A DNA stretch of 64,000 nt, taken from assembly GCA_023151275.1 (NCBI GenBank), contig JAKLJI010000004.1, positions 87,891 through 151,890 of the forward strand, written 5' to 3'. Under the pieces are notes generated by a model, which did not search any database, was not told where the DNA came from, and saw only the letters and a list, made by a program, of their open reading frames with translations. This stretch comes from Bacteroidia bacterium. Lineage in GTDB: Bacteria; Bacteroidota; Bacteroidia; UKL13-3. The position numbers and the translations under genes are program-made. Below, one piece after another: positions 21,398-24,139 of the stretch (position 1 is the first letter of the stretch; each line of letters starts with the position of its first letter).

Positions 21398-21762
21398 TTA
21401 CATCTCCAGAATTACCAGATCCAAGTCTTTTATTTTTGAAAATCCTTTATCAGCTGTTACCAATGGAATTTGGTAAGCTAAAGATGTTGCTGCAATTATG
21501 GCATCAGGAAGTTTCACATTGTATTTGCGCTTTAAGTCGATTGTTTTTTCTTTTATTTTAGAATTCCATTCCAAAAGAAAACAATCGTTTATTAATTGGC
21601 GTAATTTAGAATCCTCTGATTTTGAGATTCCTTTAAAACCTAAAAGTTCAATTTCAGAGTAAAAGAAATCCCAAAGTCATATTCCAAAAATGGCTCAACA
21701 GTATTGTTTCCTTCATGGATATAAATCAGAAAATTTGTATCAGCAAGAAAATCAATCTTCAT
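21398..21762 (-). pseudogene. PIN-domain (VapC-like) toxin with 1-nt frameshift
   Basis: MKIDFLADTNFLIYIHEGNNTVEPFLEYDFGIS-[frameshift]-SEIELLGFKGISKSEDSKLRQLINDCFLLEWNSKIKEKTIDLKRKYNVKLPDAIIAATSLAYQIPLVTADKGFSKIKDLDLVILEM read by hand. Confidence 0.8.
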
Positions 21763-21919
21763 TTTCGCGCATTAAGGTTTGATAGTTTAGTCCGTCAATA
21801 TTCCTTTTTAACTTGCCAAAGTGTTTCTTTAAATTTCCTGCACTACTCGTTTTCTTTAGTTTTTCTCTAAGAATTTTTGTAATGTTCTTCGAGTTAGATT
21901 TATCAATTACTACAGCCAT
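21752..21919 (-). CDS. Putative antitoxin (55 aa), overlapping the PIN toxin start
   Basis: MAVVIDKSNSKNITKILREKLKKTSSAGNLKKHFGKLKRNIDGLNYQTLMRENED; stop overlaps the ATG of the PIN gene; below the ORF-track cutoff. Confidence 0.7.
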   Translation of the reverse strand: MAVVIDKSNSKNITKILREKLKKTSSAGNLKKHFGKLKRNIDGLNYQTLMRENED

Positions 21920-23423: not shown

Positions 23424-23655
23424 GTGTACTTTACCTGGGGGATACATTGTTTTAATAACATCCTACGGAGTTTAAAAAATGAATTCAGTAAAGGGTTGAT
23501 AACAAAAGTATTAGCCGTCGACTCATTGTTTGATAGTTAGTTATATAATTAGCCAAATAGGGCAAAATGCATGAGTTTTGGCGTGTTAAAATGCGATGAA
23601 GCGCAAAGTTAATTCCAACTTAAACAAAAAAGCCATCCGAAATGATGGCTTGTTG

Positions 23656-23744
23656 CTCCCCGACCTGGACTCGAACCATCCCGGACGTCCGGGAATGATT
23701 AACTTGGCTCATGTGGGACTCTTTTCAGCTGAGCTAAAGGTCCA
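23656..23744 (-). pseudogene. Degenerate tRNA-Asn copy
   Basis: Shares TAGCTCAGCTG, GTTAATCAT and a 30-nt block TGGTTCGAGTCCAGGTCGGGGAGCAACAAG with tRNA-Asn at 24066-24139 but has a disrupted anticodon arm and T stem. Confidence 0.7.
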
Positions 23745-24004
23745 GAACCCGCAAAATCATCGGCTAAAATTTGCTGAATGAGTTTTCTGCTTTTCTGCCT
23801 TTTGATGAACTTTTCAATTTTGTCAGCATCTCCTTTAGAATTTGAGACTTCAAAAACAGCAATAAGCTTCCAGTCTTTGTACCTTCCGGTAAATCTCTCG
23901 CCAGAATTGTTGAGGTGTTGCGATAATCTTTGCCAAGGATTTTGGGAGTGTCCGATATAGTATTTATCGGCATCTTCGGAAAAAAGGAAATAGATGTAAT
24001 ACAT
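23699..24004 (-). CDS. GIY-YIG nuclease family protein
   Basis: MYYIYFLFSEDADKYYIGHSQNPWQRLSQHLNNSGERFTGRYKDWKLIAVFEV; C-terminus LAQLKRVPHEPS is read from the pseudo-tRNA. Confidence 0.88.
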   Translation of the reverse strand: MYYIYFLFSEDADKYYIGHSQNPWQRLSQHLNNSGERFTGRYKDWKLIAVFEVSNSKGDADKIEKFIKRQKSRKLIQQILADDFAGSGPLAQLKRVPHEPS

Positions 24005-24065
24005 GGAGGGTAGGATAAAAACGAAAAAGCCATTCGTCTAGTGATGAATGGCTTTTTACTTGTTG

Positions 24066-24139
24066 CTCCCCGACCTGGACTCGAACCAGGGACCCCATGA
24101 TTAACAGTCATGTGCTCTAACCAGCTGAGCTATCGAGGA
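24066..24139 (-). tRNA. tRNA-Asn (anticodon GTT)
   Basis: TCCTCGATAGCTCAGCTGGTTAGAGCACATGACTGTTAATCATGGGGTCCCTGGTTCGAGTCCAGGTCGGGGAG folds as a cloverleaf. Confidence 0.92.

Follow-up and report, generated by a model that had tools for sequence, protein, structure and literature searches.

What a compact GIY-YIG nuclease gene is doing between an intact tRNA-Asn gene and its broken duplicate is the question raised by a locus in a 64,000-nucleotide stretch of a Bacteroidia bacterium contig, the whole of which is called here the window. On the minus strand, the order of the features is tRNA-Asn(GTT), a terminator-like hairpin, the GIY-YIG gene, the broken tRNA-Asn copy and a terminator of its own (Table 1). 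ARAGORN, Rfam, PF01541 and comparison of the sequences confirmed this order, which had been proposed from the letters of the DNA, including the same orientation of the two tRNA-Asn sequences and the GCCATC-stem terminator behind the degenerate one. The intact gene is the sole tRNA-Asn match in the window's genome.

Table 1 Features of the tRNA-Asn locus, in positions of the window
Feature	Position	Strand	Basis
Intact tRNA-Asn(GTT)	24065..24139	-	ARAGORN; Rfam tRNA 67.1 bits at 24066-24139
30-nt block (identical at 23649-23678): 3' end of the intact gene, plus AACAAG	24059..24088	-	sequence
Terminator-like hairpin AAAAAGCCATTC..GAATGGCTTTTT, between tRNA-Asn and nuclease gene	24024..24057	-	sequence
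Gene for a 101-aa GIY-YIG nuclease; its 12 final codons are tRNA-derived	23699..24004	-	PF01541 E=7.8e-17
Relic copy of tRNA-Asn, from the D arm to the 3' end; overlaps 3' end of the ORF	about 23655..23738	-	sequence comparison
Probable decayed hairpin TCCCACATGAGCCAAG, 16 nt, where relatives have TCCCGCACGTGCGGGA	23703..23718	-	9/16 identical
Perfect 16-bp palindrome TCCCGGACGTCCGGGA, in place of the variable-loop/T-stem border of the relic	23679..23694	-	sequence
30-nt 3' block of relic, identical to 24059-24088	23649..23678	-	sequence
Terminator-like hairpin past relic, GCCATC stem	23625..23651	-	resembles terminator behind tRNA-Asn of element-free congeners

The broken copy, hereafter the relic, proved to be derived from tRNA-Asn, as the original prediction had it, and has lost the 5' acceptor strand. 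The 30-nt identity between the two 3' ends, part of the same prediction, is exact; since shuffling the relic 300 times gave no block longer than 10 nt, this repeat is not due to chance. The relic gave no tRNA match with ARAGORN or Rfam and its acceptor pairing is lost, which ruled out an intact tRNA or a tRNA-like RNA. The nuclease frame reads into it, so that the C-terminal residues LAQLKRVPHEPS are encoded by the tRNA D arm and the decayed hairpin. The segment TCCCACATGAGCCAAG is probably a decayed hairpin, because it occupies the place of TCCCGCACGTGCGGGA in the relatives and shares an identity with it that only 0.9% of shuffles reached. The pattern TCCCGNNNNNNCGGGA has one match in the window versus 0.01 expected and, together with the comparison of the family relics with their shuffles, this ruled out TCCCGGACGTCCGGGA as a chance hairpin. 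The palindrome was also ruled out as a high-copy family of the window's genome, with only 9 pattern matches of which 4 are perfectly self-complementary. Both small GIY-YIG genes of this genome are tRNA-linked (Asn in the window, Asp at locus L002), and the remaining two GIY-YIG matches lie within frames of 599 and 474 residues. The unit is a compact standalone GIY-YIG gene with a truncated, hairpin-replaced copy of the neighbouring tRNA.

We investigated the linkage to tRNA genes in other genomes. With the window's protein as query, 64 genomes of the same order gave 28 matches. In most of them, an intact tRNA, whose isotype varies, precedes the gene and a broken copy of that tRNA with GC-rich hairpins follows it. 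A profile built on a 15-row alignment of tRNA-linked-type domains (A1) matched 250 of the 393 genomes of the phylum that were searched (E<=1e-10). All listed matches, taken unselected, yielded 204 GIY-YIG ORFs; for 115, the start is at most 300 nt past a tRNA of the same strand, 45 more distant ones belong to arrays that a tRNA precedes, and 14 are just upstream of a tRNA, ARAGORN possibly scoring the relic as a tRNA at a few loci (e.g. L233). Another 12 are at contig edges and 18 have no intact tRNA in reach, several of the latter being in arrays; many of the sampled genomes are MAGs whose contigs break off at these repeats. Within arrays, the units are spaced by 315-380 bp.

The A1 profile comes mostly from tRNA-linked members, and an independent test was therefore carried out with the Pfam model on three complete genomes. 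In this small control, a same-strand tRNA was present within 400 nt at 15 of the 28 standalone GIY-YIG loci, compared to 0.17 expected, with a maximum of 3 loci in 5000 placements, and none of the 7 multi-domain GIY-YIG proteins was tRNA-linked. The association of the subfamily with tRNA genes, which had been predicted, is beyond chance in both samples. It does not extend to every small GIY-YIG gene, a possibility ruled out by the 13 unlinked standalone loci of the three genomes; with 15 of 28 linked, about half of such loci are ordinary. The system is not confined to Bacteroidota, because the Patescibacteria genome G456 exhibits the same nuclease/tRNA/hairpin-relic anatomy in mirrored form, the nuclease gene being upstream of intact tRNA-Ser, Glu, Leu and Lys (L294, L302, L309, L317). 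At one locus (L010, G005:C51), a GIY-YIG gene was found between two tRNA-Asn relics; the intact tRNA-Asn is on the same contig, about 34 kb away.

Relics downstream of the nuclease gene exceeded their shuffles in 139 of 160 units, and the local tRNA was the best-fitting isotype for 130 of these 139. The match reaches the 3' end of the tRNA in 121/139 relics and comes near the 5' end in only 34/139. The last 25 nt of the relics showed 79% identity to the local tRNA, as opposed to 54% to its isotype counterparts from other genomes, and were perfect against the local tRNA in 27 of 94 cases. In a mirrored class, the nuclease gene lies between an upstream relic and the intact tRNA. At L209, L210 (2658-2965), L217 (2430-2944) and L251, tandem 5' halves of tRNA-Asn are located directly upstream of the intact tRNA-Asn; each half has its anticodon segment replaced by a hairpin and ends after it.

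The hairpins are the most distinctive part of the arrangement and were absent from the original prediction, whose overall interpretation is partly supported. With a minimum stem of 7 bp and a maximum loop of 8, 96 of 139 relics have a hairpin, compared to 36 of the intact tRNAs and 1 shuffled relic. Each is a 16-30 nt hairpin that replaces part of the anticodon arm, the variable loop or the T arm in the tRNA copies. To place the hairpins on the tRNA, flanks of 10 nt were matched, and up to 2 mismatches were tolerated. In the Val, Ala, Arg, Lys and Pro lineages, the hairpin mostly replaces the whole anticodon arm (about 27-44), and in the Asp lineage the replaced segment is mostly at about 51-59. 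For Met, positions 37-47 are replaced in one lineage and 57-62 in another, and Gly has two hairpin sites. Within an isotype, the position of the hairpin tracks the protein lineage, in 72 of 84 cases compared to 50.9 when shuffled within isotype (0/2000). The foot TCCCG/CGGGA hardly varies among 25 hairpins of Asn type, and their inner pairs vary jointly, with 98.3% of the cells paired and a covariation of 0.33 compared to 0.07 for shuffled and at most 0.05 for slid sequences. Outside this context, palindromes of the form TCCCGA..TCGGGA are dispersed in some genomes, with 63 copies in G233 and 17 in G378, the latter having no profile match (L273-L292, especially L281, L282, L285 and L291). Several of them sit in the tips of terminator-like hairpins or in other repeats, where they replace a few bases in sequence that is not tRNA-derived. 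In the window's genome, TCCCGCACGTGCGGGA and TCCCGCATAAACGGGA at L036/L037 (contigs C50 and C55) lie within repeats that look like group II intron ends.

Each protein lineage is tied to particular isotypes and has its own site of replacement; units are also repeated in tandem, and those of different lineages can be stacked at a single tRNA. The lineage of the protein predicts the isotype of the tRNA: across 126 loci, 106 of 125 proteins share the tRNA isotype with their nearest neighbour from a different genome, against a mean of 12.2 and a maximum of 28 in 2000 shuffles, and the protein tree required 31 isotype changes versus 91.5 when shuffled. A second set of 80 named loci, found with an Asn-clade alignment (A2), agrees with this specialisation, because 48 of them adjoin tRNA-Asn, in records of Flavobacteriales, Sphingobacteriales, Chitinophagales and Bacteroidales. 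The conserved tail LAQLVRVPHVRD of the A2 proteins corresponds to the tRNA-Asn D arm and the palindrome TCCCGCACGTGCGGGA read in frame. The tail AQLVRVPHVRD, cited in the original prediction, is real and is explained in this way, in dozens of named Bacteroidota loci.

We give an even chance to the reading that the unit in the window belongs to a widespread, isotype-specialised family of GIY-YIG elements that target tRNA genes and work like free-standing homing endonucleases. The protein of each lineage would recognise the tRNA gene of its cognate isotype at the site replaced in the relic and would cut element-free alleles, after which recombination would copy the unit next to the intact tRNA. 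The hairpin-scarred copies would serve as uncut donor and as templates for amplification, and unequal recombination would give rise to the arrays. Cleavage, homing and self-protection by the hairpin are steps that we infer, and the likeness to a free-standing homing endonuclease would follow from the cutting of element-free alleles and the copying beside the intact tRNA. The main weakness of the homing reading is that the intact tRNA, presumably with the target, adjoins the nuclease gene and that simple homing predicts its cleavage. The presence of the same class of palindrome off tRNAs, and in a genome with no profile match, also counts against it. More tentatively, the units may represent phylum-wide minimal elements, selfish or domesticated, in which every nuclease lineage would have its one isotype and a hairpin cassette would have replaced the recognition site in duplicated tRNA halves on both sides of the intact gene. 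Such elements would be self-immunising and self-amplifying, by neither intron homing nor an integrase, and the hairpin would circulate independently as well.

The sequence alignment of the family showed that the catalytic-type residues of the GIY-YIG superfamily (Y, Y, G, R, H, E) are invariant. The protein is a single compact domain closest to 1zg2/1ywl, and its nearest solved structures are UPF0213 and SLX1 (E=1.7e-14); the standalone UPF0213 or prokaryotic Slx1-like proteins BH0048 and EF2693 have the same domain size and, to our knowledge, no linkage to tRNA genes. The score against the homing endonuclease model TIGR01453 was 16 bits, far below the cut-off of 56, and no match was found among the PHROG families. 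This affiliation counts against the homing reading and favours one in which the hairpin is the substrate: an SLX1-like, structure-selective nuclease would cut the extruded palindrome of the relic, and the unit would be amplified or spread when the direct repeats of the tRNA are used for repair. SLX1 enzymes are reported to cut branched DNA (PMC6902002), and a structural substrate would fit both the conserved foot, with inner pairs that change while pairing is kept, and the arrays with their spacing. A purely structure-selective enzyme, however, leaves the isotype specialisation and the lineage-specific position of the hairpin unaccounted for, and similar palindromes are dispersed in G378, where no such nuclease was detected. 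We regard the hairpin as substrate as unlikely.

A single uninterrupted tRNA-Asn in relatives had been proposed as a thing to look for and was found in two species of the window's genus, which have one such gene and no unit at the corresponding pfkB-flanked site. As in free-standing homing, the gene adjoins its presumed target and relatives have empty alleles. Among the 30 loci taken with a tRNA-Asn pattern in the family, 5 have a GIY-YIG match, one of which is a truncated remnant. Two different GIY-YIG lineages are in series behind one tRNA-Asn (L202, L077), in Psychroflexus each with its own relic. The GIY-YIG identity does not follow that of pfkB: at pfkB-flanked loci, one host showed 70% identity for GIY-YIG and 69% for pfkB, and another 50% and 78%. 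From the serial insertion of two lineages at one tRNA, the patchy presence and this discordance with the flanking gene, we infer that the cassette may be mobile; these facts favour insertion and exchange over simple descent, with differential loss as the alternative. Ordinary recombination or descent with loss may also account for the genomes compared, which counts against the homing reading. No sequence related to the unit was found in the phage, plasmid and IMG/VR collections, where the window's GIY-YIG domain was unmatched, and carriage by phage or plasmid was ruled out by this absence of matches.

The acceptor stem of the window's intact tRNA-Asn is TCCTCGA/TCGGGGA, versus TCCTTCT/AGAGGGA in two congeners, and the first form is also present in the element-bearing G046/G047, of another genus. 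This allele suggests a possible transfer or conversion of the tRNA-Asn itself. Import of the tRNA allele along with the element was ruled out as a general rule, as other element-bearing tRNA-Asn genes of the family have the local allele.

Passive hitch-hiking would require neither cutting nor homing: the nuclease gene would be an old, vertically inherited neighbour of the tRNA, tandem duplicates would arise and decay locally, and the palindrome would be an independent mobile sequence that tolerates dead tRNA copies. The pfkB-tRNA-Asn synteny common to several hosts and the palindromes dispersed in non-tRNA repeats are in its favour. The nuclease genes are nevertheless under purifying selection (median dN/dS of the family 0.19, 27 comparisons), isotypes are matched over many tRNA types, two lineages are stacked at one tRNA, congeners have empty sites and the position of the hairpin is coupled to the protein lineage, all of which makes hitch-hiking quite improbable.

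GIY-YIG enzymes are known as DNases, and the tRNA fold is not kept in the relics, because they generally lack one acceptor strand, often lack the 5' half, and occur as arrays of 5' halves with no 3' half. An action on RNA, in which the protein would cleave or bind the cognate tRNA and the hairpin-bearing tRNA-like transcripts would be decoys in a toxin-antitoxin or defence module, is for this reason very unlikely, although it would accommodate the isotype specialisation, the altered anticodon or T arms, the weak matches of the nuclease domain to the PDC-S14 candidate defence models (E about 1e-5) and the prokaryotic Slx1-TrmH fusion for which earlier authors proposed RNA roles (PMC1564403).

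For the homing reading, the closest known system is the phage SegB (T4/T6), a free-standing GIY-YIG homing endonuclease located beside tRNA genes, which cuts inside tRNA genes at the motif RAWTSGAAC and drives the amplification of its own tRNA segment (PMC13096335). Both have a small GIY-YIG gene adjoining tRNA genes of many isotypes and tandem amplification of tRNA-containing segments. In contrast to SegB, the present family resides in bacterial chromosomes, has a standalone domain of SLX1/UPF0213 type and carries a truncated tRNA copy with a hairpin replacement; it is also restricted to one isotype per lineage, whereas SegB neighbourhoods have no isotype preference as a family. In our reading, the SegB motif is the T-loop sequence in reverse complement; one universal T-loop target, as proposed for SegB, was ruled out here, the replaced site differing between lineages. 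The best-supported relationship is an analogy, in which the present family would work like SegB and, being nearest in sequence to UPF0213 and SLX1, would not be of its lineage. Elements that use a tyrosine integrase at tRNA 3' ends are likewise flanked by the intact tRNA on one side and by a duplicate of its 3' part on the other. The present unit differs from them by the lack of an integrase, with the GIY-YIG ORF alone in about 0.3-0.4 kb, by a duplicate that often includes the D arm and a hairpin, and by the mirrored units upstream of tRNAs. REP/REPIN-RAYT systems share short palindromes with a conserved foot and a variable centre, dispersed in some genomes, whereas here the palindrome is at fixed tRNA positions beside a GIY-YIG gene, and neither a RAYT nor a GTAG foot was noticed among the loci read, unsystematically.

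A search of open-access full texts, a scope that leaves subscription papers and preprints outside, gave no description of this arrangement in bacterial chromosomes, and the terms Bacteroid- and genomic context are absent from the text of the 2006 survey of the GIY-YIG superfamily. This widespread family of tRNA-gene-linked nuclease elements, present in Bacteroidota and at least one Patescibacteria genome, is apparently undescribed. If the homing reading is true, many unexplained small GIY-YIG genes of Bacteroidota, and some in Patescibacteria, would be one kind of element, for which essential tRNA genes serve as address and shelter, and the tRNA-linked homing endonucleases of phages would be extended to bacterial chromosomes. 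The odd tRNA-encoded protein tails in databases would be accounted for, and the many natural pairs of nuclease and altered target would make the sequence specificity of the smallest GIY-YIG enzymes readable. How a nuclease coexists with an adjoining intact essential target would become a testable question.

Near the locus in the window, small adjacent ORFs are also present on the minus strand at 21398-21919, one of which looks like the remnant of a PIN-type toxin.
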